Source: an uncultured Clostridia bacterium
Lineage (GTDB): Bacteria; Bacillota_A; Clostridia; TANB77; CAG-508
Direction: 5' to 3'
Assembly: GCA_944393295.1 (NCBI GenBank)
Contig: CALXZR010000134.1
Coordinates: 1 to 12,265, forward strand
DNA: 12,265 bases
This document shows, piece after piece, positions 1-12,265 of the stretch. Made by a program: the position numbers and the translations under genes. Position 1 is the stretch's first letter. Every line of letters starts with the position of its first letter. Under the pieces are notes generated by a model. That model made no database searches and was not told the origin of the DNA. It was given only the letters and a program-made list of their open reading frames with translations.

Positions 1-709
1 CCTCGTTTCCGCTAGCAGCTCCCATCCATAATATATCATGATTTCCCCATTGTATATCCAAACTGTGGAAATCCATCAATTTATCCATAATAATAGGTGC
101 TCCTGGTCCTCTATCGTAAATATCTCCAATTATGTGCAAATGGTCAATTGCCATACGTTTTATTAAATCAGAAATTGCAATAATAAAAGCATCTGCCCTA
201 TTTAAATCTATTATGCTTTCTATAATTTGTTTATAGTAGTTCTCTTTGTTTTTATCTTCTCCTTGAGAATGTAAAAGTTCATCTATTATATAATCAAATC
301 CTTTTGGCATTGCTTTACGAACCTTAGAACGAGTATATTTAGAGCTTACGGCTCTAGTAACTTCAATAAGCCTATATAGTATTATTCTATACCATTCTTT
401 TATTTCTTCTACTTCTTTTTTTACTAAATTTAATTTTTCTTCTGGGTAATATATTAAAGTTGCTAGTTCTTTTCTATCTTTTTCTGTTAATGAATCTTTA
501 TAAATATCCTCTATTTTATTTTTTATAATTCCAGATCCATTATTTAAAATATGAATAAAAGCTTCATATTCGCCATGTATATCACTTAAAAATAGTTCAG
601 TTCCCTTTGGTAGATTAAGAATTGCTTGCAAATTAATAATCTCCTCTGAAACCTCTTGAATATTTTTATAAGTTTTACTTAATAATTCTAAATATTTTTC
701 ATTTTCCAT
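1..709 (-). CDS. fbp: Class 3 fructose-1,6-bisphosphatase, N-terminal 236 residues (cut by window edge)
   Basis: Hydrolyses fructose 1,6-bisphosphate to fructose 6-phosphate in gluconeogenesis, in the cytoplasm. The open frame runs from an ATG at 709 leftwards off the window. It carries the metallophosphoesterase motifs of the Firmicutes-type enzyme in order: SDIHGE (residues 42-47), GDIYDRGP (195-202) and GNHD (222-225), which hold the metal-binding Asp, His and Asn residues. The stretch [19 protein letters not shown] between them is also family-like. Family members have about 650 residues, so roughly two thirds of the protein lies outside. The start is supported by GAAAGG eight bases upstream of the ATG. 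It is divergent from the dodecin/spoVA operon across about 150 very AT-rich bases; I could not pick a convincing fbp promoter there. Assignment is secure from the motifs; completeness cannot be judged. Confidence 0.95.
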
Positions 710-862
710 AGTATCAGCCTTTCTTTTCAATATTATTTAAAAATTAAATTAATTTTATTTTTGAATTATGATTTTTTTATGAATAATTTATGTATTTTAT
801 GGAAAATATATGAACAAAAATATAGATTATTTTATCTAAATTTATTTTTAGGAGGTTTTTTT

Positions 863-1102
863 ATGAATTGTGAAAAACATATCAAAATAACAGGTTATTC
901 TAATGTTTCTTGGAAGGATGCAATTGTTAAATCTATTGCTGAAGCTTCTTGTACTTTAAAGAATTTATCTGGTGTTACAGTATTATCTCAAAGAGCAACT
1001 GTAAAAGGAGATAAAATAGATGAATATTTAGTTGATTTAGATTTAACCTTTTTCATTGATTGCGAGAAAAAAGACGAGAAGGCTGAACAAGATAATATGT
1101 AA
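863..1102 (+). CDS. Dodecin-like small protein, first gene of the spoVA operon
   Basis: A 79-residue protein matching the dodecin fold pattern: beta strand (HIKITGYS), the SWKDAIVKSIAEASCTLKNL helix, then two strands (GVTVLSQRATVKGDKI and YLVDLDLTFFID). Dodecins form hollow dodecamers that store flavin or related ligands. The tryptophan that stacks on the flavin in classic dodecins (in NxxW) is glycine here (G37), while the Gln further on (Q43) is kept, so flavin binding is uncertain. The start is the ATG at 863 behind AGGAGG at 850-855. The frame stays open upstream to 761, but that part has no binding site and a non-dodecin sequence. Only 26 bases separate it from spoVAC, so co-transcription with the spore genes is likely. 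A weak SigG-like pair (TGAATA at 780, AAATATA at 804) lies upstream and is not claimed as a promoter. The last 13 residues are charged and variable. Confidence 0.8.
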   Translation: MNCEKHIKITGYSNVSWKDAIVKSIAEASCTLKNLSGVTVLSQRATVKGDKIDEYLVDLDLTFFIDCEKKDEKAEQDNM

Positions 1103-1128
1103 ATTTATTTTTTTAGAAAGGAAATAAC

Positions 1129-1590
1129 ATGAAAGTAGAAAGTAAAGAAGACTATCAAAAATATGTAGATAAGAAGACTCCAAATTCTCCTATCTTAAAA
1201 AATTGCTTTAATGCTTTTTGGGTTGGTGGTCTTATATGTGCAATTGGACAAATCATATTCGAATTTTGTAAAATTCGAGGCTTAGAAGAAAGTAGTAGCT
1301 ATACTGTAGTTTCAATATTGCTGATTTTCTTAAGTGCTTTTTTAACCGCACTTAATATTTTCAATAGAATTGGTAAATTTGCTGGAGCTGGTTCTTTAGT
1401 TCCTATTACAGGATTTGCAAACTCAATTGTATCTCCTGCAATGGAATATAAATCTGAAGGTTATGTACTTGGAGTTGGTGCAAAAATGTTTACAGTTGCA
1501 GGTCCAGTTCTTGTATATGGAATTTCTTCAGCAATTATTGTAGGAATTATTTTTCTAATTTTTAATACTCAAAGTATAACTTTAGTTTAA
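1129..1590 (+). CDS. spoVAC: Stage V sporulation protein AC
   Basis: Inner spore membrane protein of the SpoVA channel, which moves dipicolinic acid with Ca2+ into the developing spore and releases it at germination. SpoVAC of Bacillus subtilis is known to behave as a mechanosensitive channel. The 153-residue product has a charged N-terminus (KEDYQKYVDKKTPNSP), hydrophobic segments at about 26-46, 58-78 and 111-146, and the family signature GAGSLVPITGFANSIVSP at about 86-103. Its paralogue SpoVAE, downstream, carries the same signature as GCGATVPLTGFGN. Length is normal for the family. The start ATG follows AAAGGAAA at a usable distance. spoVAD begins 72 bases downstream, a wider gap than elsewhere in this operon, and the gap holds a small inverted repeat. 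Confidence 0.95.
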   Translation: MKVESKEDYQKYVDKKTPNSPILKNCFNAFWVGGLICAIGQIIFEFCKIRGLEESSSYTVVSILLIFLSAFLTALNIFNRIGKFAGAGSLVPITGFANSIVSPAMEYKSEGYVLGVGAKMFTVAGPVLVYGISSAIIVGIIFLIFNTQSITLV

Positions 1591-1596
1591 AAATGG

Positions 1597-1630
1597 TTAC
1601 TAGGTACCAAAAACCTAAATATTTTAGTAA
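1597..1630 (+). promoter_or_regulatory. Inverted repeat in front of the spoVAD ribosome binding site
   Basis: TTACTA (1597-1602) is complementary to TAGTAA (1625-1630), and the overlapping TAGGT (1601-1605) to ACCTA (1613-1617). The right arm ends at the GGAG of the only strong binding site before spoVAD. Folding could tune translation here or merely be AT-rich chance; there is no T-tract, so it is not a terminator. Confidence 0.3.
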
Positions 1631-1662
1631 GGAGTATATGATTTTATCATATAAATATAAAA

Positions 1663-2667
1663 GTGAAAAAAGTTGGAAATCAAAGTTTTGTATTAAGTAA
1701 CCCTGTAAATATTGTAAGTACTGCAACTATTGTTGGTCCAAAAGAAAAAGAAGGTCCTTTATGTGAATTTTTTGATCAGGCTTTAGAAGATGAATTTTGG
1801 GGTGAAAAATCTTGGGAAAAAGCAGAAAGTAAATTTATTAAAGAAACTGTAAATATGGCAATAGCAAAATCTAAAATTGCTCAAAGTGATATTGACTTTT
1901 GTTTTGCTGGAGATCTTTTAAATCAATGTATTTCTTCTTCCTTTGGACTTCGTGAAATTAATATTCCATTTTTTGGTGTTTTTGGGGCTTGCTCTACCTT
2001 TGTTGAATCTATGATATTAGCCTCAATGACTATTGACGGTGATTTTGCAACTAATGTCGTTTGTGCAAGTTCTAGTCATTTTTGCAGTGCAGAAAAACAA
2101 TTTCGTTTTCCCCTAGAGCTTGGAAACCAAAGACCACCTTCTAGTCAATGGACTGTTACTGGAAGTGGTAGCGCTGTTCTTTCAAAAAATGGTGAAGGTC
2201 CAAAAATAACAATATTAACTCCAGGAAAAATAGTAGATATGGGAATTAAAGATGCAAATAATATGGGGGCTGCTATGGCTGGTGCTGCAGCAGATACTCT
2301 TCTTACTCACTTTAAAGATACAGGTCGAAAGCCTAGTGATTATGATGCTATATTTACTGGAGATTTAGGTTATATAGGAAAAGACATTTTAATAGATTTA
2401 GCTGCTTCAAAAGGCTACAATATAAGAGCAAATTATAATGACTGTGGTGTTTTAATCTTTGACAAAGAAAAACAAGATACACATTCTGGAGGCTCTGGAT
2501 GTGGTTGTGTAGCAAGTGTTTTTTCTGGTTATATATATCAAATGTTTCAAGAGAAAAAATATAAAAAGGTTTTACTAATGGCAACAGGTGCTTTAATGAA
2601 CTCAACAAGTAGTCAACAAGGTGAATCTATTCCTGGTATTGCTCATGCTGTTAGTATAGAGAGTTAA
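1663..2667 (+). CDS. spoVAD: Stage V sporulation protein AD, dipicolinic acid-binding subunit
   Basis: Soluble thiolase-fold component of the SpoVA complex, known in Bacillus to bind dipicolinic acid. Family hallmarks seen here are VGPKEKEGPL (about 24-33), AGDLLNQ (82-88), FGACST with C110, VTGSGSAVLS, GAAMAGAAADTL, NDCGVLIFD, GGSGCGC, and the C-terminal QQGESIPGIAHAV. Length, 334 residues, is close to the usual 338. The start is a GTG at 1663: the N-terminus MKKVGNQSFV aligns directly with the family start (MKLTGKQTW in B. subtilis). It has no good binding site of its own. The only strong site, AAGGAG at 1629-1634, fits an ATG at 1638 that is in a different frame and ends at 1700, overlapping this start. 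Expression may rely on translational coupling. spoVAE follows ten bases after the stop. Confidence 0.95.
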   Translation: MKKVGNQSFVLSNPVNIVSTATIVGPKEKEGPLCEFFDQALEDEFWGEKSWEKAESKFIKETVNMAIAKSKIAQSDIDFCFAGDLLNQCISSSFGLREINIPFFGVFGACSTFVESMILASMTIDGDFATNVVCASSSHFCSAEKQFRFPLELGNQRPPSSQWTVTGSGSAVLSKNGEGPKITILTPGKIVDMGIKDANNMGAAMAGAAADTLLTHFKDTGRKPSDYDAIFTGDLGYIGKDILIDLAASKGYNIRANYNDCGVLIFDKEKQDTHSGGSGCGCVASVFSGYIYQMFQEKKYKKVLLMATGALMNSTSSQQGESIPGIAHAVSIES

Positions 2668-2677
2668 GGAGGAATTT

Positions 2678-3046
2678 ATGGATTGGTTCATGGTTTTAAA
2701 AGCCTTCATTGTAGGTGGATTAATTTGTATAATTGGTCAAATTTTAATAGATAAAACAAAATTAACTTCAGCAAGAATTCTAGTATTATTTGTAACAACG
2801 GGAGTTATTTTAGGTGGACTTGGAATATATAAATATTTAATAGATTTTGCAGGTTGTGGAGCAACAGTACCTTTAACAGGCTTTGGTAATTTACTTGCAA
2901 AAGGTACTATTGATGCAATATCTGAAAAAGGCTTTTTAGGTATATTTACAGGTGGTACAACAGCCGCCGCTGGTGGCATTGCAGCAGCAGTGTTCTTTGG
3001 ATATATTGCCTCCTTAGTTTCTAAGCCAAAAATAAAAAAGCAATAA
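2678..3046 (+). CDS. spoVAE: Stage V sporulation protein AE (SpoVAEB type)
   Basis: Third core SpoVA subunit, a small membrane protein of 122 residues from the same Pfam family as SpoVAC. Hydrophobic segments lie at about 4-24, 30-52 and 88-112, with the shared signature GCGATVPLTGFGNLLAKG between the second and third. The family-typical end GIFTGGTTAAAGGIAAAVFFGY is present (given here only as its first 20 residues plus FGY), followed by a basic tail KPKIKKQ. Start ATG at 2678 is preceded by AAGGAGG at ideal distance. The order AC-AD-AE without spoVAA/AB/AF is the usual reduced clostridial arrangement. An intrinsic terminator follows about 70 bases downstream. Confidence 0.95.
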   Translation: MDWFMVLKAFIVGGLICIIGQILIDKTKLTSARILVLFVTTGVILGGLGIYKYLIDFAGCGATVPLTGFGNLLAKGTIDAISEKGFLGIFTGGTTAAAGGIAAAVFFGYIASLVSKPKIKKQ

Positions 3047-3115
3047 TTTCTCATTATTTTTAATAAAATTTTTTATAAACATTTTCCTTGAAATGTTCAT
3101 ATATTGCAAACTTTT

Positions 3116-3150
3116 AAATGTTCGAATAATATTTTTTCGAACATTTTTTT
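3116..3150 (+). terminator. Intrinsic terminator of the spoVA operon
   Basis: An 11-bp perfect stem, AAATGTTCGAA with TTCGAACATTT, encloses a nine-base AT loop; the T-run continues after the stem (3144-3150). A second, shorter hairpin (AACATTT 3078-3084, AAATGTT 3091-3097) just upstream uses the same arm sequences and could pair with the terminator arms instead. Confidence 0.85.
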
Positions 3151-3159
3151 GCAAAAGTA

Positions 3160-3188
3160 TTGACAAACAGATTTTCTATGTGTAGAAT
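3160..3188 (+). promoter_or_regulatory. SigA-type promoter of the YgjP-like peptidase gene
   Basis: TTGACA (3160-3165), 17-base spacer, TAGAAT (3183-3188). Transcription should start near 3195, so the LexA-type box at 3196-3207 lies on the first transcribed bases. Confidence 0.8.
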
Positions 3189-3195
3189 AATAACA

Positions 3196-3207
3196 GAACA
3201 AGAGTTC
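3196..3207. promoter_or_regulatory. Putative LexA operator (SOS box), GAAC-N4-GTTC
   Basis: The sequence GAACAAGAGTTC is a perfect dyad GAAC-AAGA-GTTC, the core consensus of LexA boxes in Bacillus and Clostridia (GAACnnnnGTTC). It sits eight bases after the -10 element and before the ribosome binding site at 3227-3233, where bound repressor would block initiation. An outer A on the left (ACAGAAC) is unremarkable. The operator role is inferred from match and position. Confidence 0.6.
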
Positions 3208-3241
3208 AGGTAATAAATATATTTTTAAGGAGGCTTTAGAT

Positions 3242-3811
3242 ATGAATATTTTTTCAAGAACAAACTATAAAACATTTAGAAAATCAAATACTACAGAAGA
3301 TTTTGTATTTGGTAAAGATGAAACTTTAGAGCCAAAATTTACTAAAATTTTCGGTATAAACTATTCAATAAATATATACTATCTAAAGATTAAATCTCCA
3401 GAATTAAATTTAGAAAAAAATAGTATAAAAATTTATCTTCCTATGCAATATAGAAAAAATAACAATCAGGCTTTGTTAGATGTTATTTTACACAAGATGT
3501 ATGTAAAAATTGCAGAAAATGAAATTGAAAATGTTATGGAAAAAGCAAGGCACACTTTTGGTTTTGCACCTGAAGATTATAAAATAACTAAAATGGACAA
3601 AAGTATGGCTTTTTGTAATAAAGAAATGGCTTTAATTTATATAAATCCTAAAATCGTAATGTTTGATAAACAAATTATTGAATATATCGTTTTTCATGAA
3701 TTTTGTCATTTAAAATATAAAACTCATTCTAAAAAATTTTATGAGCTTTTAAAAACTTATGTCCCAAACTATGAGTCACTTTGCAATAAAATTAAAGGAA
3801 TTAATTATTAA
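3242..3811 (+). CDS. YgjP-like (DUF45) zinc metallopeptidase
   Basis: A 189-residue cytoplasmic protein with no signal peptide. The zinc site is HEFCH (152-156) followed by a third His at 162 in the pattern HExxHxxxxxH, then KKFYELLKTYVPNYE, the arrangement of the YgjP/DUF45 gluzincin-like family related to SprT and WLM proteases. The N-terminal half, about 30-90, is the strand-rich part of this family. The expected RWGSC segment before the zinc helix is degenerate (MAFCNKEMALIYINPKI). Molecular function of bacterial YgjP proteins is not settled; relatives (SprT/SPRTN, Wss1) remove proteins cross-linked to DNA. The start ATG follows AAGGAGG eight bases away. The gene is a single-gene unit with its own promoter, a LexA-type box and a terminator, which suggests DNA damage induction. 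Family assignment is good; substrate is unknown. Confidence 0.8.
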   Translation: MNIFSRTNYKTFRKSNTTEDFVFGKDETLEPKFTKIFGINYSINIYYLKIKSPELNLEKNSIKIYLPMQYRKNNNQALLDVILHKMYVKIAENEIENVMEKARHTFGFAPEDYKITKMDKSMAFCNKEMALIYINPKIVMFDKQIIEYIVFHEFCHLKYKTHSKKFYELLKTYVPNYESLCNKIKGINY

Positions 3812-3836
3812 GAATTAATTAAATAATTGTAAAAAT

Positions 3837-3877
3837 AAAGCTTTTGTATAATTCTGTCGTACAAAAGTTTTATTTTT
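3837..3877 (+). terminator. Intrinsic terminator after the metallopeptidase gene
   Basis: AAAGCTTTTGTA (3837-3848) pairs with TACAAAAGTTTT (3860-3871) over 12 bp with one G-U pair and an 11-base loop, followed by a T-rich run to 3878. Confidence 0.85.
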
Positions 3878-3880
3878 TAA

Positions 3881-3909
3881 TTTACATAATTTAATATTTG
3901 TGATATAAT
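3881..3909 (+). promoter_or_regulatory. SigA-type promoter of the acetyltransferase gene
   Basis: TTTACA (3881-3886), 17-base spacer, TATAAT (3904-3909), with an extended TGA before the -10. It starts three bases after the previous terminator's T-run, so this gene is an independent unit with a leader of only about 25 bases. Confidence 0.8.
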
Positions 3910-3941
3910 AAATAACATAATCTTATAAGGAGGTAATACCC

Positions 3942-4400
3942 TTGCAAAAAACAAATAATATTCCACAGCTTCGAATGCGGCTGTTGAAGAAAAAGGACTT
4001 AAGCTCTCTGCGTCAAATTGCAGAGATAAGCTCCGAAACAGAGTTGCTCACTCGCCTCACAAGCAATGCCTTCCCTGAAAAATACAAGAAATCTTACAGC
4101 ATCTTTTTGCTCGATAAATCTGGGAAAACCATAAGCATGGTCGGCTTCATCGAGTTAGAGCCTTGTGCCAAAGCAATGTATGTGAATGGCTTTATTTCGA
4201 AACCGTATCGTGGAAGCCATTTCATGACTAGAATTCTCAAGGACATCATTCTCAAGTATACAGACGTTACCTTCTTCTACTTCGATATTGAAGAAGACAA
4301 CCTGCCTGCGAAGAATCTTATTGAGAAACTCGGTGGTACAGTCTACCGGACCTCTAGTACCAGAAAGAGCTATTATATCAAGGGACGTGGTCTGAGCTAA
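3942..4400 (+). CDS. GNAT-family N-acetyltransferase, probably recently acquired
   Basis: A 152-residue protein reading as a GNAT domain: alpha/beta start LRMRLLKKKDLSSLRQIAEI, central strands SIFLLDKSGKTISMVGFIEL and YVNGFISKPYRGSHFMTRIL, where YRGSHF is the acetyl-CoA pyrophosphate loop (R/QxxGxG/A) in degenerate form, then FYFDIEEDNLPAKNLIEKLG, the typical C-terminal NxxAxxLxEKLG element. Acceptor substrate cannot be told. Start is a TTG at 3942 behind AAGGAGG (3927-3933), spacing eight; no ATG follows until well into the domain. Base use differs sharply: 50% G+C in 4021-4080 and 43% in 4261-4320, against 28% in a matched block of leuS, with codons such as CTC, CGG and TCC rare in the neighbours. 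It carries its own promoter and a G+C-rich terminator, so the whole cassette 3881-4443 may have come by transfer. Confidence 0.75.
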   Translation: MQKTNNIPQLRMRLLKKKDLSSLRQIAEISSETELLTRLTSNAFPEKYKKSYSIFLLDKSGKTISMVGFIELEPCAKAMYVNGFISKPYRGSHFMTRILKDIILKYTDVTFFYFDIEEDNLPAKNLIEKLGGTVYRTSSTRKSYYIKGRGLS

Positions 4401-4407
4401 ATCTGCA

Positions 4408-4443
4408 AAAAGCCCTCGCAGGAGCAATCCTGCAAGGGCTTTT
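4408..4443. terminator. Bidirectional intrinsic terminator between the acetyltransferase gene and leuS
   Basis: Two 16-base arms, 4408-4423 and 4428-4443, pair with a single C/A mismatch around a GCAA (GNRA) loop. The core GCCCT...AGGGC is flanked by A4 on one side and T4 on the other, so it can stop both converging transcripts. It lies 9 bases before the leuS stop codon in window order. Confidence 0.9.
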
Positions 4444-4452
4444 ATTATATTT

Positions 4453-6945
4453 TTATTTTACAACTATATTATATACTTTTGCTTTTACATAAATTTCTTT
4501 TACTATATTTTTTCCTTCTAAAGCCTTTTTTACTGTTTCATCATTTTTTACAATTTCTTTAACAGTATTTTCATCAGCATCTCTATCTATTTTTACAACA
4601 GCTTTTAATTTTCCGTTAAATTGTACTGGTATTTCAATTTCATCATCAATTGTTTTTGCTTCGTCATATTTTGGCCAAGGAGTTTCATTAATTGTCTTTT
4701 TTTCTCCTAAAATACTAAATAATTCTTCTGTCATATGAGGTGCAAAAGGATTTAACAATTGTAAAAAGGTTTTATATTCAGCTTTTGTTATCATTTTATC
4801 TTTTACAAATTCATTTGTCATTGTCATAAATGTTGCAACTGCTGTATTAAATTTCATTTCTTCTATATCTGAAGAAACCTTCTTTATAGCTTTGTGCATC
4901 ATTTTTTCATGTTTCTCTGAATATTTATTTTCATCTGTCATTATATTTTGTAGATTCCAAACTCTATCTAAGAATTTTCCACAACCACGAATACTTTCCA
5001 TAGACCAAGGTGCTGTTTGGTCAAATGGTCCCATAAACATTTCATATACACTGAAAGTATCTGCACCAAATTCTTTTACAATATCATCTGGATTTATAAC
5101 ATTTCCTTTTGACTTTGACATTTTTTCTCCATTTGAACCTAAAATCATTCCATGAGAAGTACGTTTTTGATATGGCTCTTTAGTTGGCACTACACCTATG
5201 TCATATAAAAATTTATGCCAAAATCTTGAATACAATAAGTGAAGTGTTGTATGTTCCATTCCGCCATTATACCAGTCTACTGGGCTCCAATATTCAATAG
5301 CTTCTTTTGAAGCTAAAGCTTTATCGTTATGTGGATCCATATATCTTAAGAAATACCAAGAAGATCCAGCCCATTGTGGCATTGTATCTGTTTCTCTTTT
5401 TGCTGGCTTTCCACAATGTGGACATTTTGTTTTTATCCATTCTGTTTGTTTTGCTAAAGGTGATTCTCCATTTTCTCCTGGTTCATAATCCTCTATATCT
5501 GGTAATTTCAAAGGTAATTCTTCCTCTGGAATTGGAACCCAACCACAATCTTCGCAATAAACCATTGGTATTGGTTCTCCCCAATATCTTTGACGAGAAA
5601 ATACCCAATCACGTAATTTATAATTTACTTTTCTCTTACCTAATTTATTTTTTTCTATATAGTCTATAGCCTTTGCAATTGCTTCTTTTGAAGTTAATCC
5701 ATCTAAAATACCTGAATTTACAGCAATTCCATTATTTACATCTACAAAAGGCTCTTTCATTATAACTTCATTATAATTTACATTTTCTGCCATTAAATAA
5801 TCAAATCTAGCTTCTAATTCTTTTTGTAAATCTTCACTTACATTTTTTAAATCTGGTTTTATAACAGGTTTTATTGGTAAATTAAATTTTTTAGCGAAAG
5901 CAAAATCTCTATCATCATGGGCAGGAACTGCCATAATCGCACCAGTTCCATAAGTAATTAAAACATAATCTGAAATCCATATTGGAATTTCTTCATTTGT
6001 AAATGGATTAATAGCTTTAATTCCTTTTATTTCTACTCCTGTCTTTTCTTTGTTTAATTCTGAACGCTCAAAATCAGATTTTAAAGCAGATTTCTTTTTA
6101 TAGTTTTCTACTTCTTCTTTATTTAAAATTTTATCTTTATATTTTTCAACTAATTCATGTTCTGGTGCAATTACCATATATGTTGCTCCATAAATAGTGT
6201 CTGGTCTAGTTGTATACACAAGCAATGTATCATCTGTATCTTTAATTTTAAAGTTTACTTCTGCACCTTCACTTCTTCCAATCCAATTTTTTTGTTGAAT
6301 TTTTATTTTTTCTAAATAATCTAATTCGTCTAAATCGTCTATTAATCTTTGAGCATATTTTGTAATACCAAGCATCCATTGACTTTTTTCTTTTTGAACA
6401 ACTGGGCTACCACATCTCTCACATACCCCATTTACAACCTCTTCATTTGCTAATCCAACTTTGCAACCAGTGCAAAAATTTATTGGCATTGTAGCTTTGT
6501 ATGCTAGCCCCTTTTTAAATAATTGAATAAAAATCCATTGTGTCCATTTATAATAGTTTGGATCCGTTGTATTTACTTCTCTTGACCAATCAAAAGAAAA
6601 TCCCAAAGATTTTAATTGCTCTCTAAAATGATTTACATTGTTTTCAGTAGTTATTTTTGGATGAACATGATTTTTAATTGCATAATTTTCAGCTGGGAGT
6701 CCGAAAGCATCAAAACCAATTGGATATAATACATTATATCCTTCCATTCTCTTTTTTCTTGCTACAATATCCAATGCTGTATAGCTTCTTGGATGTCCTA
6801 CGTGTAAGCCTTGACCAGATGGATATGGAAATTCTATTAATCCATACCATTTTTTCATTGTATAATCATCTTTTGCATTAAAAGTTCCTTCTGTATACCA
6901 TTTTTTCTGCCACTTTTGTTCTACTTCTTTAAAATTATATGACAT
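4453..6945 (-). CDS. leuS: Leucyl-tRNA synthetase
   Basis: Charges tRNA-Leu with leucine in the cytoplasm. The 830-residue product has all class I landmarks: HIGH signature as HVGH (48-51) after PYPSGQGL, a zinc-ribbon cysteine cluster ([13 protein letters not shown] with CERCG), the editing-domain threonine-rich [12 protein letters not shown] at 245-256, [10 protein letters not shown] in the catalytic core, a second cysteine set (CEDCG, CPHCG), [16 protein letters not shown], and [14 protein letters not shown] with K608. The anticodon-binding and C-terminal ribosome-like domain ([16 protein letters not shown]) complete it. Start is the ATG at 6945, preceded by GAGGGAG at seven bases and matching the family start [13 protein letters not shown]. 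The frame remains open upstream to 7041, across the promoter, so that longer reading is wrong. No T-box leader is visible: the 5' leader is only about 30 bases. Confidence 0.98.
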
Positions 6946-6982
6946 CTTCTTTCTCCCTCTTCTCTTTATATTAATGTTTAGT

Positions 6983-7011
6983 ATTATATAACATTTTTTT
7001 TTATTTTTCAA
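6983..7011 (-). promoter_or_regulatory. SigA-type promoter of leuS
   Basis: On the minus strand TTGAAA (7011-7006), 17-base A-rich spacer, TATAAT (6988-6983). Start near 6976 leaves about 30 transcribed bases before leuS, with no room for a T-box. Confidence 0.85.
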
Positions 7012-7046
7012 CCTGTTTTTAAGAAGTGTACCTAAAAACATTATTC

Positions 7047-7074
7047 AAAAAAAGAATGGCATATGCCATTCTTT
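7047..7074 (-). terminator. Intrinsic terminator of the FGE-fold gene
   Basis: A perfect 24-base palindrome (7051-7074) can form a 10-bp stem AAAGAATGGC/GCCATTCTTT with an ATAT loop. Read on the minus strand it is followed by seven T's (7053-7047). It begins 13 bases after the upstream gene's stop. Confidence 0.85.
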
Positions 7075-7086
7075 TCTTTTAATTTA

Positions 7087-8232
7087 TTATTTATACAATA
7101 TTGTTCTAAAGCCCCAATATCCATCAGACAAGTTCTCATAATAACCAATATGACTATTTGCAACTTTATTTAAATTTGCACTTCCTCCACGCACAGTTCT
7201 TTTTATAGTTGATGTTTCAGAAGCAGAAATAGTATTTTTATTTTTTCTATTAGTTTTTGTATCTTCCTCTACTACACTTTTATCTATTTCTGTTGTCCAT
7301 TCTCTAACATTACCAGCCATATCACATACATTATTTACAATATCACTTGGAGTTTGTCCTGTTGGATAAATAGTTCCTGAATAATTACCATAGCTTGTAT
7401 TTGTAGAATAGTTTGGTATATTTTGATTTATCCATTCTAATGTCGTGTCCCAAGCATAGCTATTTACAATAGCTGTATTAACTTCTTCTGGATATCCAAA
7501 AGCGTCTGCCATATCTAAAGAAGCTTGATACGCATCTGTAAAGTTAATGTTAGTCCATGGAATTTTACCAGCCATACTTGCTGCAACTTTTTTACCATTT
7601 ATATCATAGCTTGAGGCTTCAAATCTAGCAATGTAAAATCCATAATTTTTAGCAACACTATTTACTAACTCTGATGAAGTAGTATTTGATTCTTCAAAAT
7701 CTGAACTTAGCATTGTATTTCTTGTTAAAATACCAGTAGGAACTGGAACCCATACAAACTGATTTCCATAAGAATCTTGTATAACAAATCCACTATTAAC
7801 ATCTCCGCCAATATGTTCAAAACCTTCAGGAATAAATGGATTTTCAGCTGATATTTCTCTTATATTTTCAACAACAACGTTCGTTGATATTTCTTCTCCA
7901 TTTACACCTTTTGCTTTAAAAGTGTAATTACCATTTTCTGTAACTGTGTATTCTTTTGTATTTCCATTAACAGTTGTTCCATCTGGTAAAGTTATAGATT
8001 CAATTCCCTGTTCATCTAAAGTTGCTGCAACAACAGTAATTATTACTTCATCTTGACCTTCCTCCGAAGTATTTACTGTTGCGTCAATAGTTGGAACAAT
8101 TTTTTCCTCTGCATCTTTATTATTGTTGTTTGAGCTTTCATTTGAAGTAAACATACTTACTGCAAACCCTACTATTGCAATTACAACAACTATTAAAACA
8201 ATTATTATAACTGGTGATAACTTACTTCCCAT
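7087..8232 (-). CDS. Membrane-anchored Ig-like plus formylglycine-enzyme-fold (C-type-lectin-fold) surface protein
   Basis: A 381-residue exported protein of unknown ligand. Residues about 6-28 form a signal anchor or membrane segment (SPVIIIVLIVVVIAIVGFAV), then a low-complexity Ser/Asn linker (NESSNNNNKDAEE). A bacterial Ig-like domain spans about 46-124, ending in the typical YTVTENGNYTFKA. From about 133 to the end is a FGE-sulfatase/SUMF1-type domain: QFVWVPVPTG, FYIARFEAS, the core CDMAGNVREW (303-312), RGGSA (348-352) and terminal GFRTILY. Formylglycine-generating enzymes need a C-terminal Cys pair; none exists here, and C303 is the only evident cysteine, so catalysis is unlikely and a binding role is more plausible. 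ATG at 8232 is chosen because AAAGGA lies ten bases upstream; a TTG at 8241 is too close to that site. It has its own promoter and terminator. Confidence 0.75.
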   Translation of the reverse strand: MGSKLSPVIIIVLIVVVIAIVGFAVSMFTSNESSNNNNKDAEEKIVPTIDATVNTSEEGQDEVIITVVAATLDEQGIESITLPDGTTVNGNTKEYTVTENGNYTFKAKGVNGEEISTNVVVENIREISAENPFIPEGFEHIGGDVNSGFVIQDSYGNQFVWVPVPTGILTRNTMLSSDFEESNTTSSELVNSVAKNYGFYIARFEASSYDINGKKVAASMAGKIPWTNINFTDAYQASLDMADAFGYPEEVNTAIVNSYAWDTTLEWINQNIPNYSTNTSYGNYSGTIYPTGQTPSDIVNNVCDMAGNVREWTTEIDKSVVEEDTKTNRKNKNTISASETSTIKRTVRGGSANLNKVANSHIGYYENLSDGYWGFRTILYK

Positions 8233-8295
8233 ATCTACCAATTCCTTTCTTTATTTTTCATTAGAATATTATTATTTCAAATTAATATATATCTT

Positions 8296-8324
8296 ATTAT
8301 AAACATAATGTCTACATTTTTCAA
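8296..8324 (-). promoter_or_regulatory. SigA-type promoter of the FGE-fold protein gene
   Basis: On the minus strand TTGAAA (8324-8319), 17-base spacer, TATAAT (8301-8296). The hexamers are identical to those of the leuS promoter. The leader before the ATG at 8232 is about 55 bases. Confidence 0.8.
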
Positions 8325-8361
8325 ATATTTTTTTGTATTTTTTATAAAAAACAAGAATAAA

Positions 8362-8455
8362 ATTTTCTAAGTAGTAAAGCTACATAAGAAAATCTAATTT
8401 TTCCATAACTATCTTCTAAGGAAACTCACCACTATCGTGGATGCTTTCCTAAGAA
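8362..8455. other. Two unassigned hairpins in the rpmA / FGE-gene gap
   Basis: Hairpin A (8362-8393): ATTTTCT pairs with AGAAAAT, then after an AA/ATA internal loop GTAG pairs with CTAC around TAAAG. Hairpin B (8414-8455): TTCTAAGGAAA pairs with TTTCCTAAGAA with one A/A mismatch; a 4x4 internal loop leads to an inner CCAC/GTGG stem with a four-base loop. Neither has a T-tract, and both lie outside the rpmA transcript (ends near 8459) and the FGE-fold transcript (starts near 8290). I do not recognise a known riboswitch or ribozyme. Confidence 0.4.
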
Positions 8456-8458
8456 TAT

Positions 8459-8490
8459 AAAAAAATAGAGAGCTATATAAAAACTCTCTA
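8459..8490 (-). terminator. Intrinsic terminator of the rplU-rpmA operon
   Basis: On the minus strand TAGAGAG (8490-8484) pairs with CTCTCTA (8472-8466), closed by a further T-G pair, followed by seven T's (8465-8459). It starts 17 bases after the rpmA stop. Confidence 0.8.
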
Positions 8491-8506
8491 TAAAATCTTT
8501 TACATA

Positions 8507-8764
8507 CTAAGCCATTGGATATACACTTACTTGTTTTTTATCTTTTCCTTTTCTCTCAAATTTAACTGTTCCATCTACTAAAGCAAATAAAGTGTCATCA
8601 CTTCCAATTCCAACGTTTGTTCCTGGATGTACATTTGTTCCTCTTTGTCTAATTAATATATTTCCAGCTTTAACAATTTGACCATCAGATTTTTTAACAC
8701 CAAGTCTTTTTGACTCACTATCTCTTCCGTTTTTAACACTACCTTGACCTTTTTTGTGTGCCAT
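8507..8764 (-). CDS. rpmA: 50S ribosomal protein L27 (bL27), without N-terminal extension
   Basis: Component of the large ribosomal subunit whose N-terminus reaches the peptidyl transferase centre. The 85-residue sequence is canonical: [21 protein letters not shown], then [21 protein letters not shown] and [10 protein letters not shown] (first motif spans residues 2-22). In most Firmicutes L27 begins with a short extension ending LQFFA that the protease Prp removes; here the protein starts directly at MAHKKGQ. An in-frame TAA immediately precedes the ATG, so no extension is possible, and AAAGGAG lies at proper distance. It is separated from rplU by 72 bases, with no prp (ysxB) gene between, and is followed by a terminator rather than by obgE. 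Confidence 0.97.
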
Positions 8765-8836
8765 TTAAGATTCACTCCTTTCGCTTTATATACTTTAAAT
8801 ATTTATATTCTCAAATATTATATTTCAATATATAAA

Positions 8837-9214
8837 TTATTTAGCTACTTTTTCTTTTGCTTCTGTTTTTGTAGCTTTTGTAGCTGTTGTTTTCTTTTCA
8901 GCAGCTGTTTTTATTGAAGTAATTTCTACTTTTGTATAATCTTGTCTGTGTCCTCTTGTTTTTCTTTCATTTTTCTTAGCTTTATATTTGAAAACTAAGA
9001 TTTTCTTTCCTCTACCATGAGAAACTACTTTTCCTTCAACTTTTACACCTGTTACATAAGGATTTCCTATTTGTACTTTTCCGTCATCAGAAACTAGAAT
9101 GATTTTATCGAAAGATACTTTCTTTCCTTCTTCTACATCTAATTTTTCGAAATATACATTTTCTCCTTCTTGAACTTTGTATTGTCTTCCACAAGCTTCA
9201 ATAATTGCGTACAT
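8837..9214 (-). CDS. rplU: 50S ribosomal protein L21 (bL21) with lysine/alanine/threonine-rich tail
   Basis: Large-subunit ribosomal protein that binds 23S rRNA. Motifs [18 protein letters not shown], the central [22 protein letters not shown] and IVFKYK-type [21 protein letters not shown] are diagnostic. Length is 125 residues against about 102 in the family; the extra 22 or so at the C-terminus ([19 protein letters not shown]...) are a low-complexity basic tail. The ATG follows GGGAGGTG at nine bases. A leader of about 95 bases with its own promoter lies upstream and rpmA follows in the same transcript. Confidence 0.97.
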
Positions 9215-9309
9215 TAAAAATGCACCTCCCTTTTCGTATACTCGCTAACTTCCAAACTTGGTAGCTGAAATAAATCAGCATTTATTAACCAAAGCTAAGC
9301 AGTTTACAG
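9215..9309 (-). promoter_or_regulatory. Structured rplU leader, candidate L21 autoregulatory leader
   Basis: The roughly 95 transcribed bases before rplU fold into nested helices: CTAAC near the 5' end with GTTAG near the 3' end, TTGGT with ACCAA, and an apical GCTGA/TCAGC hairpin (9279-9264) with a six-base loop. Firmicutes rplU genes are known to carry an L21 leader RNA. The match is by position and architecture only; I did not compare with the Rfam model. Confidence 0.55.
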
Positions 9310-9315
9310 TTAGAT

Positions 9316-9344
9316 ATTTTAACACAGCTTGACTTATTTGTCAA
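9316..9344 (-). promoter_or_regulatory. SigA-type promoter of rplU-rpmA
   Basis: On the minus strand TTGACA (9344-9339), 17-base spacer, TAAAAT (9321-9316) with an extended TGT. The -10 neighbourhood AGCTGTGTTAAAATAT is nearly identical to that of infC. Confidence 0.85.
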
Positions 9345-9395
9345 CATTTTCCTTCAGTTTTTGTTATAAATTTTAGGTGCATTTTTATTTTTTAA

Positions 9396-9719
9396 TTAAT
9401 TTACAAAATCAACATTAGTTCCTACCATATATATACTATCCATACTATTAGGCATTATTATTAAAGATCCAGAATATTTGTAATCTTCTTCATTTTCTTT
9501 TCTATCTACTTTTATAGTTGCTGTATTATTTTCAGCTTTTTCAATACTATTAAAAGAAATGTCTTCTTTATTATTTTTATCTATTACTATTATAGCAAAA
9601 TAATGTTCAAAATCTTCTTGTGTTAGTTCTTCTGCTTTTTCTGCATTTTGAGTTAAACAGCATAAATATTTATAAACTGTTTTAAAATATTCTTTATATA
9701 CATCTTCAATATCTATCAC
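9396..9719 (-). pseudogene. ECF sigma factor remnant joined in frame to an unrelated C-terminus
   Basis: The 107-residue frame begins with about 36 residues typical of ECF sigma region 2 (IEDVYKEYFKTVYKYLCCLT, then AEKAEELTQEDF), but the rest of region 2 and all of region 4 are missing. After LTQEDF the sequence changes to EHYFAIIVIDKNNKEDISF and ends SGSLIIMPNSMDSIYMVGTN, resembling the tail of an exported or anti-sigma-type protein I cannot name. An internal deletion fusing an ECF gene to a following gene explains this best. Translation signals are intact: GTG start at 9719, AGGAGGA seven bases upstream, and an extended -10 (TGTTAAAAT, ending 9757) without a clear -35. No terminator separates it from rplU. 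It may be expressed, but it cannot be a working sigma factor. Confidence 0.6.
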
Positions 9720-9823
9720 TGTTTAGTCCTCCTGTTTTTATTTATATTTCATCTTAATTTTAACATAAATTATATTTTCCTGTATATAAGTCTTTTCTTT
9801 ACAAAAAATGTTACAAAATTTGC

Positions 9824-9852
9824 AAAAAAAATCCTCAAGTTATACTTGAAGA
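9824..9852 (-). terminator. Intrinsic terminator of the infC-rpmI-rplT operon
   Basis: On the minus strand TCTTCAAGT (9852-9844) pairs with ACTTGAGGA (9840-9832), one G-U pair and a three-base loop, followed by eight T's (9831-9824). It lies about 30 bases after the rplT stop. Confidence 0.85.
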
Positions 9853-9882
9853 CTTCTTTTATTCTTTATATTTTTAAATAAT

Positions 9883-10233
9883 TTATGCTTTTTTAGCAAC
9901 TTCTGCTAATTCTGCGAAAGCTTTGCTATCAGAAACAGCTAATTCTGCAAGCATTTTTCTATTAATTGTAACATTAGCTTTCTTTAATCCTGCGATTAAT
10001 TTACTATATGTTAAACCATTCATTCTTGCTGCTGCATTAATTCTTACTATCCATAATTTTCTAAAATTACTTTTTCTATCTTTTCTTCCTACATATGCAT
10101 ACATTCCAGATTTCATAACAGCTTGTTTTGCCATTCTAAATCTATAATGTTTTGCTCCATAGTAACCTTTTGCTTGTTTTAATACTTTTTTATGTCTTGC
10201 TCTTGTTGTTCTTGCTGTTTTTACTCTTGCCAT
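9883..10233 (-). CDS. rplT: 50S ribosomal protein L20 (bL20)
   Basis: Early-assembling 23S rRNA-binding protein and, in Firmicutes, the repressor that binds the leader of its own operon. The 116-residue product shows the basic N-terminus [20 protein letters not shown], then [42 protein letters not shown] and [16 protein letters not shown] (each quoted in parts). Length is standard. AAAGGAG precedes the ATG. It is the last gene of infC-rpmI-rplT, 34 bases after rpmI. Confidence 0.98.
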
Positions 10234-10267
10234 TTATTTTCACTCCTTTTCCTTCTAATATCAATTT

Positions 10268-10471
10268 CTAGTTACCATAAGGTAATAATTTCTTAATTCC
10301 TGCTTCTACTGTTTTATCTGCAATTCCATTTTGTACTCTAGCAGTCATTCTTTGTCTTTTTGTTTTATTTGCTAATAAATGTCTTCTATTAGCTTTTGTT
10401 CTTTTTACTTTTCCTGTTGCAGTATAAGAATATCTTTTCTTTGCTGCTTTGTTTGTTTTTAATTTTGGCAT
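10268..10471 (-). CDS. rpmI: 50S ribosomal protein L35 (bL35)
   Basis: Small basic large-subunit protein of 67 residues: MPKLKTNKAAKKRYSYTATG, then KVKRTKANRRHLLANKTKRQ and a C-terminal KLLPYGN. Family members usually begin MPKMKTHRGAAKRF; the His after KT is Asn here and the rest is conserved. GGGAG lies before the ATG. Gap to infC is 21 bases, so translation is probably coupled within the operon. Confidence 0.97.
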   Translation of the reverse strand: MPKLKTNKAAKKRYSYTATGKVKRTKANRRHLLANKTKRQRMTARVQNGIADKTVEAGIKKLLPYGN

Positions 10472-10492
10472 TTTTTTATCTCCCTTCGCATT

Positions 10493-11002
10493 TTAGATTT
10501 TTTTACTTAAAATAATAAACATTGTTTTACCTTCTAAGAATGGCTTCTTTTCCACTGTTGCAATATCTTCAAGAGATTCAGCAAATTTAGTTAAAATTGC
10601 TTCTCCTGCCTTTACATTGTTTAATTCTCTTCCTCTAAATCTTAATGTGAATTTTACTTTGTTTCCAGCCTCTAAAAAGCCCCTAGCATTTTTACTCTTA
10701 AAGTTAAAATCATGTTCACCTATATTAGATGAAACTCTAATTTCTTTCATTTCAACAGCTTTTTGATTTTTTCTAGACTCTTTTTCTCTTTTAGCTTGTT
10801 CAAATTTGTATTTTCCATAATTCATAATTTTGCAAACTACAGGTTTGCTGTTTGGAGCAACTAATACTAAATCTAAGTTTTTATCTTCTGCCATTGATAT
10901 TGCTTCATCTAATGGTAAAATTCCAACTTTTTCTCCTGTTTCTCCAATAACTTGAACTTCTTTTTCTTTTATTTGTCTATTTATAGGCAATTCTTGTTTT
11001 AT
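10493..11002 (-). CDS. infC: Translation initiation factor IF-3, probable AUA start codon
   Basis: Binds the 30S subunit, prevents subunit joining and proofreads start codons. Both domains are present: N-terminal INRQIKEKEVQVIGETGEKV and DLVLVAPNSKPVVCKIMNYG, then the linker YKFEQAKREKESRKNQKAV and C-terminal EMKEIRVSSNIGEHDFNFK with KVKFTLRFRGRE. With the proposed start it has 169 residues, normal for the family. The strong site GGAGG (11016-11012) is followed in frame by TTT, ACT and then ATA at 11002, nine bases away; the next possible start, a TTG at 10990, is 21 bases away, and no ATG or GTG is nearby. IF3 genes are known for rare starts such as AUU, which let IF3 limit its own synthesis. 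The frame is open up to 11083, but that part lies inside the leader and terminator. Confidence 0.92.
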   Translation of the reverse strand: MKQELPINRQIKEKEVQVIGETGEKVGILPLDEAISMAEDKNLDLVLVAPNSKPVVCKIMNYGKYKFEQAKREKESRKNQKAVEMKEIRVSSNIGEHDFNFKSKNARGFLEAGNKVKFTLRFRGRELNNVKAGEAILTKFAESLEDIATVEKKPFLEGKTMFIILSKKI

Positions 11003-11157
11003 AGTAAAACACCTCCAAAAAAAAATTTGACTTATTTTAAAAAGCCAAATCCACAATATCTTAACATTATGTGTATAACACAATGCTTATTTATGATATT
11101 TTCTAACCGTATGCCTTATAAAAGATACGGTGAGAAGTGGATACTTCTTCTTAAAAC
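11003..11157 (-). promoter_or_regulatory. infC-rpmI-rplT leader, candidate L20 leader RNA
   Basis: About 155 transcribed bases precede infC. On the minus strand they contain AGAAG/CTTCT around TATCCA, CCGTAT/ATACGG as a perfect 6-bp stem, an AATATC/GATATT outer helix enclosing a GTGT/ACAC hairpin, and finally a terminator hairpin. Firmicutes infC operons are known to carry an L20 leader that attenuates transcription when L20 is in excess; position, length and the terminal hairpin fit. Not compared with the Rfam model. Confidence 0.7.
11017..11049 (-). terminator. Attenuator in the infC leader
   Basis: On the minus strand TTTGGCTT (11049-11042) pairs with AAGTCAAA (11033-11026) with one G-U pair, followed by nine T's (11025-11017). 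The T-run directly touches the GGAGG of infC, so premature termination would end transcripts just before the binding site. Confidence 0.8.
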
Positions 11158-11163
11158 ACATAT

Positions 11164-11192
11164 ATTTTAGCACAGCTTTTTTTTATTGTCAA
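11164..11192 (-). promoter_or_regulatory. SigA-type promoter of infC-rpmI-rplT
   Basis: On the minus strand TTGACA (11192-11187), 17-base spacer, TAAAAT (11169-11164) with an extended TGC. Confidence 0.87.
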
Positions 11193-11227
11193 GGAAAAGT
11201 TATAATTTTTACCAATTTTACATATAT

Positions 11228-11258
11228 AAAAAAATTTGTATCATTAGCTGATACAAAT
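11228..11258 (-). terminator. Intrinsic terminator of the membrane/coiled-coil protein gene
   Basis: A perfect 10-bp stem ATTTGTATCA/TGATACAAAT with a five-base loop; read on the minus strand it is followed by a T-run to 11228. It separates this gene from the infC promoter. Confidence 0.88.
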
Positions 11259-11267
11259 CTATTTAAA

Positions 11268-11872
11268 AGAATATGCACATTTAATAAATTATTATATCTC
11301 AAATTCTACATAAAAACTCTCTCAATATGTATGTCTTCAAGTCTTACTCTGTTAACATCTCCGCCGTTAACTCTTCTATCTGCTTAACCATTTCTGTATA
11401 TTCCTCGAGTTCTTTTTGATTTTCTAATAGTGTTTCTAAATCGCTCTGGTGCATTTTTATTGCATTTTCTATTTCAGTGCGATCACTATCGTATTTGTTA
11501 TCTGATGGAATTTTTCTTAAAAGCTCTTCTAAATAATCAATAATTTCTTCATTCATTTCTATTTCTATTTGATTCTTTATGCAAGAGTTTTCAATTCCTA
11601 CCATCAGATATTCTTTTTCAAGAAGCATAAATGTTTCGGAAATATAAGCTTCATCTGTTTCTATCTTTGTTTCATCCAACTCCCGAAGATTTAATTGTTT
11701 TAGCTCCTTTACTGTAATTGTTTCTGTTTCCTTTTTTAAAGAAAAACCAATTACGATTCCCAATATAAGAGCTGCCACTAACCCAATTACAAAGCCTATC
11801 TTTTCTTTTGTATTCATCTTGCTCTCCCTCTTCTTATACCTATATTATCTATGTAAAAAATGTGCATATTCT
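11268..11872. repeat. 15-bp inverted repeat bracketing the membrane/coiled-coil protein gene
   Basis: AGAATATGCACATTT at 11268-11282 is the exact reverse complement of AAATGTGCATATTCT at 11858-11872; the match stops at both ends. One arm lies in the 5' leader and the other between the stop codon and the terminator, so both are in the same transcript. Confidence 0.6.
11344..11817 (-). CDS. Hypothetical small membrane-anchored coiled-coil protein
   Basis: I do not recognise this 157-residue protein. Residues 7-26 form one membrane segment (IGFVIGLVAALILGIVIGFS) after a short basic N-terminus, followed by KKE. The rest is hydrophilic and very Glu-rich; about 38-75 and 85-155 are predicted by eye to be helical, and the last 60 residues show coiled-coil-like spacing (LETLLENQKELEEYTEMVKQ). 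Only one Cys (79) and no catalytic motif is seen. A peripheral structural or scaffold role at the membrane is possible but unproven. ATG at 11817 follows GAGGGAG at suitable distance. It is a single-gene unit with promoter, a leader of about 105 bases holding two hairpins, and terminator, all enclosed by the 15-bp inverted repeat. Confidence 0.7.
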   Translation of the reverse strand: MNTKEKIGFVIGLVAALILGIVIGFSLKKETETITVKELKQLNLRELDETKIETDEAYISETFMLLEKEYLMVGIENSCIKNQIEIEMNEEIIDYLEELLRKIPSDNKYDSDRTEIENAIKMHQSDLETLLENQKELEEYTEMVKQIEELTAEMLTE

Positions 11873-11917
11873 GAAATTGAATAAGACTCAATTTCTATTT
11901 CTTTGCTGCATAGCAAA
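11873..11917 (-). promoter_or_regulatory. Two hairpins in the leader of the membrane/coiled-coil protein gene
   Basis: GAAATTGA/TCAATTTC (11873-11880 with 11888-11895) is a perfect 8-bp stem with a seven-base loop; TTTGC/GCAAA (11902-11906 with 11913-11917) is a 5-bp stem. Neither has a T-tract. The gap 11818-12132 otherwise holds only the two divergent promoters and the rplM leader. Confidence 0.4.
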
Positions 11918-11929
11918 ATTATGTAATCT

Positions 11930-11958
11930 ATTTTAGCATAAAATATTATTTTTTACAA
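11930..11958 (-). promoter_or_regulatory. SigA-type promoter of the membrane/coiled-coil protein gene
   Basis: On the minus strand TTGTAA (11958-11953), 17-base spacer, TAAAAT (11935-11930) with an extended TGC. Confidence 0.75.
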
Positions 11959-11976
11959 GTTTTTTCCACTATTTAC

Positions 11977-12005
11977 TTGACTTTTATATAAATCTGTATT
12001 AAAAT
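11977..12005 (+). promoter_or_regulatory. SigA-type promoter of rplM
   Basis: TTGACT (11977-11982), 17-base spacer, TAAAAT (12000-12005). The -35 lies only 18 bases from the -35 of the divergent promoter. Confidence 0.8.
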
Positions 12006-12011
12006 AATTAA

Positions 12012-12132
12012 GCATTATATGTAAGTATGTAAAATTTGTTTCAACCTCTCCCCGGTAGTTGAAAATAAATTTTCATATATTTATATAACTTAGATATTAA
12101 ATTTAAAAATTGAAATGGAGGGTATTTGTACC
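12012..12132 (+). promoter_or_regulatory. rplM leader, candidate L13 leader RNA
   Basis: About 120 transcribed bases precede rplM. The clearest element is TTTCAAC (12039-12045) with GTTGAAA (12058-12064), a 7-bp stem capped by a C-rich CTCTCCCCGGTA loop, unusual in this AT-rich region. Firmicutes rplM genes are known to have an L13 leader; assignment here is by position. Confidence 0.5.
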
Positions 12133-12265
12133 ATGAATAATACTACATATAGCCCTAAAAAAGGCGAAATTGAAAAAAAATGGTATATAATAGACGCAAC
12201 AGATAAGTCATTAGGTAGAGTTGCTAGTGAAGCAGCTAAATTATTAAGAGGAAAACATAAACCAA
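12133..12265 (+). CDS. rplM: 50S ribosomal protein L13 (uL13), N-terminal 44 residues (cut by window edge)
   Basis: Early-assembling large-subunit protein. The visible residues [20 protein letters not shown] and [20 protein letters not shown] followed by KHKP match the family start (WyvIDAtgktLGRLAs.iA..LrGKhKp). Start ATG at 12133 follows GGAGGG (12117-12122) at ten bases. In Bacillota rpsI normally follows; it would lie outside. The frame runs open to the end of the window. Confidence 0.96.

Follow-up and report, generated by a model that had tools for sequence, protein, structure and literature searches.

A gene for a YgjP-like metalloprotein in an uncultured member of the Clostridia (GTDB lineage Bacteria; Bacillota_A; Clostridia; TANB77; CAG-508) is, judging from its sequence and that of its relatives, very probably controlled by LexA. 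The gene, here called ygjP, lies in a stretch of 12,265 nucleotides (nt) that was analyzed as a whole and is referred to as the window (GenBank assembly GCA_944393295.1, contig CALXZR010000134.1, positions 1 to 12,265 of the forward strand). A preliminary description of the window had proposed that a perfect GAAC-AAGA-GTTC dyad after the -10 of a strong promoter is a LexA-type box, that it governs a single-gene unit, and that the product is a YgjP-like protein with an HExxHxxxxxH motif. The observations were confirmed, and the interpretation is supported. The role of the product is stated less firmly: that it acts on DNA-bound proteins, as its regulon company and fold suggest, is a serious possibility, just short of an even one.

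The features concerned, in window coordinates, are as follows.
3116-3146, plus strand: terminator-like hairpin closing the spoVA operon (RNA folding energy -11 kcal/mol, z -4.2).
3137-3152, no strand: weaker LexA-like site (C)GAACATTTTTTTG ahead of the -35 (matrix score 10.1, second-best in the window).
3160-3165, plus strand: -35 element TTGACA, a promoter consensus match.
3183-3188, plus strand: -10 element TAGAAT, 17-nt spacer from the -35.
3196-3207, no strand: LexA box GAAC-AAGA-GTTC, the predicted SOS operator (matrix score 12.1, best in the window).
3227-3233, plus strand: ribosome-binding site AAGGAGG, read from the sequence.
3242-3811, plus strand: ygjP-like gene, 189 residues, a short form in which the N-terminal portion of the Pfam domain is missing (PF01863 profile positions 66-202 of 207).
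3695-3727, plus strand: codons for residues 152-162, HEFCHLKYKTH, which form the metal-binding and catalytic motif HExxHxxxxxH.
3831-3877, plus strand: terminator-like hairpin downstream of ygjP, T-rich on its 3' side (RNA folding energy -16.6 kcal/mol, z -6.8).

Together, the -35 and -10 elements match the consensus at 11 of 12 positions. The dyad, GAACAAGAGTTC, is the only exact occurrence of GAACNNNNGTTC in the window. It begins 7 nt past the -10 and would span about +1 to +12 of the transcript, abutting the core promoter as expected of an operator in a LexA regulon. Because hairpins flank the gene on both sides, ygjP is most likely transcribed alone. Between 3116 and 3152, the hairpin closing the spoVA operon and the weaker LexA-like site share sequence through the 3' arm of the hairpin, and by eye the layout is the same in L001, the locus of the nearest relative (L and G numbers denote loci and genomes, respectively).

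The boxes of related genomes identify the motif. Among the 27 genomes with an orthologue locus, a LexA DNA-binding domain was matched in 26 (23 strongly, the others as weak pieces) and RecA likewise in 26, with 24 readable at the start. The LexA of G001 passes TIGR00498 and contains both S24 and DNA-binding domains. Upstream of recA, the strict box RAACNNNNGTTY follows the -10 in all 24 readable genomes; in 20 of them it reads GAACATAAGTTT, and in G025 it is identical to the window 12-mer. Of 23 lexA loci, 18 have AAACNNNNGTTT across the -35, and nine have a GAAC-type box downstream. As far as its letters go, the motif at ygjP is the one that the relatives' LexA reads, because their recA, lexA, pcrA, recN and dinB promoters carry the strict box or near variants of it; the match is to the relatives' recA, lexA and pcrA boxes, not to the window genome's own. 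The window dyad is also of the type described for Bacillus and Clostridioides difficile: excerpts of PMC4234289 give the LexA box as GAACN4GTTC in B. subtilis and as GAACN4GTTY on recA, lexA, ruvC and uvrB of C. difficile. The passages and table rows consulted from that paper name no YgjP-like gene.

The combined pattern of a promoter followed by such a box was matched 108 times in the 27 genomes, versus two control matches, and order-wide in 129 of 143 genomes, with seven control matches altogether. Seventy of the 108 matches were read, a non-random sample in which 40 were hand-picked, mostly omitting those that looked like recA or ygjP. They comprised pcrA (15), recN (14), recA (7), dinB (7; five by script and two by eye), ygjP (6), recD2 (1), ArsR-type genes (9) and 11 others, including a gene for a hypoxanthine phosphoribosyltransferase. 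Names were assigned by eye and one example of each was checked by profile: recA, recN and recD2 scored above the cut-off, while pcrA (an incomplete piece) and dinB were best matches under it. The ygjP promoter itself fits the pattern in 17 of the 27 loci. At loci L157-L226, pcrA, recN, dinB and one recD2 were seen to share the promoter-plus-LexA-box layout of recA, and this shared layout outlines the SOS regulon of this uncultured family.

Conservation of the box was assessed in 70 ygjP upstream regions of 80 nt each. Of 83 genomes with a match, 27 best-match upstreams, four of them already in the set, and 20 more were read. The set omits L010 (no upstream DNA), the unparsed L107, L117 and L122, and the distant L028-L038; L101, L102, L103 and L108 duplicate L001, L006, L021 and L024; start codons were assigned manually for L243 and, for L106, shifted to the Met aligning with L110. 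Outside the short-form subgroup to which the window belongs, the strict box occurs in 43 of 48 upstreams. Inside it the count is 2 of 22, and the remaining 20 members carry weaker LexA-like forms such as AAACAAACATTY and GAACATTTATTT, most of them with CGAACATTTTTTCG or a near form ahead of the -35. The search upstream of orthologues proposed in the preliminary description thus found the motif itself outside the subgroup and, within it, mainly weaker relatives of the motif. By comparison, the strict box was found in none of 112 other genes of the L001-L027 loci, and shuffled ygjP upstreams held a mean of 0.24 and a maximum of 2 per set of 70. Most strict ygjP boxes (41 of 47) start 32-52 nt ahead of the start codon; 20 of the 47 read AAACNNNNGTTC, and L001, L113, L123, L129 and L231 share the 12-mer of the window unchanged.

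The weaker forms were scored with a LexA matrix built from 50 unique recA, lexA, pcrA, recN, dinB and recD2 sites, with no ygjP site; it is palindromic and favors palindromes. All 22 subgroup upstreams scored 11.0-14.3, and the best of 111 non-ygjP upstreams reached 9.1. This background, drawn entirely from the L001-L027 loci, had numbered 113 and included two ygjP genes, L024 (18.1) and L025 (12.3). A relaxed pattern chosen after viewing the sequences, RAACNNNNNTTY at most 40 nt before TTGAC, occurred in 54 of the 70 ygjP upstreams, with a mean of 1.1 in shuffles.

The box is specific to one YgjP clade. The strict box was missing from all 20 lower-scoring YgjP paralogues read in this family (several of their starts are unsure) and from all seven parsed distant loci of L029-L038, several with starts lacking a clear ribosome site. 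In a class-wide search, 171 of 291 genomes had a YgjP match. Upstream regions were read for 24 outgroup loci (L273-L296) and parsed for 23; a single one, L277, has the strict box, which probably lies within the end of the preceding gene. A quick tree of 113 proteins, without bootstrap, separated the 70 LexA-linked proteins from the rest at a branch with SH-aLRT 99; this protein set differs from the upstream set in including L122 and omitting L235. Because none of the paralogues and just one outgroup locus showed the box, and the LexA-linked proteins form one clade, the LexA link most likely has a single origin, within this family, and was retained from then on, though weakened in most of the window's subgroup. 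Separately, ygjP evolves faster than its neighbors: in local alignments to L001 the identity was 85%, versus 95-96% for SpoVAD and SpoVAE and 93% for LeuS, and for other subgroup loci it was 58-69%, versus about 75-88% for SpoVAD, SpoVAE and LeuS.

Damage lifts LexA repression, as is established for LexA. At ygjP, LexA would bind the dyad at the start site and block the promoter, probably aided by the weaker site upstream of the -35. Upon DNA damage, RecA would trigger self-cleavage of LexA, and a single YgjP-like minigluzincin would be made. More tentatively, the targets of this protein may be like those of SPRTN and Wss1, namely proteins trapped on damaged DNA or crosslinked to it; clade members in which HExxH is intact would cut such proteins, and HQxxH members would bind them.

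The family assignment of the product is clear. It matches PF01863 (YgjP-like; COG1451) with 97.4 bits against a cut-off of 26 and shares the domain, an intact HExxH and the third His with YgjP-like metallopeptidases. It differs from them in its short N terminus and in belonging to a LexA-box clade of its own with repeated Glu-to-Gln loss. A full-length domain is usual in the family without being needed for the cut-off, and the long relatives L113 and L118 match the profile from position 2-3. The WLM (Wss1-like) profile PF08325 gave 21.6 bits, below its cut-off of 26. The SprT-like profile PF10263 did not list the window protein at E 0.001; the relative L113 scored above its cut-off (27.5 versus 25.6) and L118 below.

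A structural model of the protein matched minigluzincins best, and SPRTN and Wss1 moderately. Abylysin, jannalysin and selecase, known as minigluzincins, are chains of 104-112 residues and lack the N-terminal strands present in the window protein. The SPRTN structures 6mdx and 6mdw carry an entry title that names DPC (DNA-protein crosslink) repair. The window protein shares 12-18% identity with SPRTN and Wss1, and none of their accessory parts was seen in its 189 residues. Besides the loss of catalytic residues described below, two results speak against a repair role: a Pfam search found no DNA-binding domain in the window protein, and the SPRTN and Wss1 fold matches are moderate, extend over about 90 residues and stand in the company of Ste24p (8.2) and BlaR1 (7.9). 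Among the weak Foldseek rows was a listed toxin, anthrax lethal factor. A PADLOC search gave no match for the window protein or L113, and a defense-system role was rejected on that basis.

The catalytic residues have been lost repeatedly, which is awkward for a plain protease. Nine of the 70 clade proteins have HQ in place of HE and thus lack the catalytic Glu (L002, L003, L016, L109, L118, L227, L228, L238, L242), and three have HEFCY, lacking the second His (L023, L026, L105). Over the whole tree the motif underwent at least eight state changes, and neither residue was lost in any of 43 other YgjPs (20 paralogues, 23 outgroup). Replacing the Glu of HExxH by Gln is a usual way of inactivating such enzymes, and a Wss1 E203Q structure was among the Foldseek matches. 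In the altered members, either catalysis is dispensable or binding is the conserved job.

These losses give some weight to an SOS-controlled but non-proteolytic protein that binds a metal and a protein or DNA partner, as a scaffold or trap, with catalysis dispensable. We regard this as unlikely, yet as the strongest of the alternatives. The nine altered members outside the window's subgroup (six HQ, three HEFCY) all retain the strict LexA box, and among the 120 matches listed of 396 close homologues, 25 have HQFCH and one HEFCN. However, 58 of the 70 clade proteins, including that of the window, keep HExxH, and the nine HQ members retain all three His, so that they may react by another route.

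Somewhat less likely still is an SOS-controlled protease whose substrate is not a DNA-bound protein but a regulator in free form or a soluble protein that has been damaged. IrrE (PprI) of Deinococcus, a damage-linked metallopeptidase that is a regulator and not a LexA target, would be its model. The lack of any sequence sign of DNA binding fits such a protease, and IrrE does appear among the Foldseek rows as a weak fold match (E 0.32). SPRTN- and Wss1-type chains outrank it there, however, and are among the 50 matches listed (VIA), where IrrE is not, an absence that in itself proves nothing. The hairpin-flanked position of the lone gene also suggests that no substrate gene is co-transcribed with it.

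Several results count against LexA control itself. The strict box is absent from five of the 48 upstreams outside the window's subgroup, and inside it only the window and L001 have it. Four lexA loci (G022, G023, G025, G026) are without a strict box, and a fifth (G015) is incomplete. The ArsR-type and 11 other genes that match the promoter-plus-box pattern show that its specificity is incomplete. Genomes show no excess of the bare dyad: exact copies number 1-7 per relative genome, fewer than those of the reversed control in 23 of 26 genomes, and the 1.7-Mb genome of the nearest relative (L001/G001) has two, one at the ygjP promoter and one within an open reading frame (ORF). With one mismatch allowed, the window holds five matches to the dyad where 2.2 would be expected, a count equalled or exceeded in 18 of 200 shuffles. 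A matrix score of 12 likewise arises by chance in a shuffled 12-kb window. The bare count is uninformative, and the evidential weight of the dyad lies in its position and conservation; similarly, the two best matrix sites of the window count for sharing one promoter, not for their score.

Binding of the dyad by a repressor other than LexA is very improbable. Its basis is that ArsR-type genes bear GAAC half-site dyads past their own promoters, as seen for ArsR/SmtB-type genes at L166, L176, L178, L192 and other loci; these are probably the operators of those genes. In several genomes an ArsR/SmtB-type repressor gene lies some kilobases from lexA. The ArsR sites differ in type, however, reading GAACAANTATTC or GAACAGATATTC, and the ygjP box resembles those of recA and pcrA in both sequence and position, one recA box being identical to it.

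Least credible is that the dyad is a chance palindrome or only a small 5' mRNA hairpin: GAAC-AAGA-GUUC can fold as a 4-bp RNA stem, but the 5' region folds with a z of just -1.1 (28 of 200 shuffles as good), the common variant AAACNNNNGTTC breaks the outer RNA pair (A versus C) while remaining a good LexA-type site, and the background genes are devoid of the strict box. The hairpin role was accordingly rejected on the z score, and chance origin on position, company and conservation.

Other parts of the window and of the related loci were also inspected. The genes upstream of ygjP are spoVAC, spoVAD and spoVAE, and ygjP is followed by a GNAT-like ORF that has a separate promoter-like site (3881-3909). 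At 7087-8241 lies a gene for an FGE-sulfatase-domain protein with a hydrophobic stretch at its start. A short ORF at 9396-9719 starts like an extracytoplasmic function (ECF) sigma factor (SigM-like, all matches below cut-off) and then diverges, so that it looks like a broken sigma-factor gene. At L198 and L203, a promoter with GAACAGAAGTTT or AAACGCATGTTT precedes a small unclassified ORF of about 105 residues, a possible further SOS gene.

YgjP proteins are widespread, and the literature surveyed, mostly as titles and abstract openings, assigns them no settled role. No open-access paper was found with both COG1451 and LexA, nor one whose title connects YgjP to SOS. The content of LexA regulons varies, and YgjP would be a new regulon member with an interesting loss pattern. 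The SOS-type switch suggests a part for this little-studied protein in the DNA-damage response, and through the LexA-tied clade the YgjP family gains a regulatory setting and a role open to testing. Whether catalysis is needed can be examined with the clade's natural Glu-to-Gln variants, which evolution has retained. A bolder proposal, which we consider unlikely as a whole, is that this YgjP clade entered the SOS regulon in a single event, works on proteins located on damaged DNA, and since then switched repeatedly between HExxH (cutting) and HQxxH (metal-binding, non-cutting) forms. If true, the switching clade would be a bacterial, LexA-controlled counterpart of SPRTN and Wss1 with natural trap versions.
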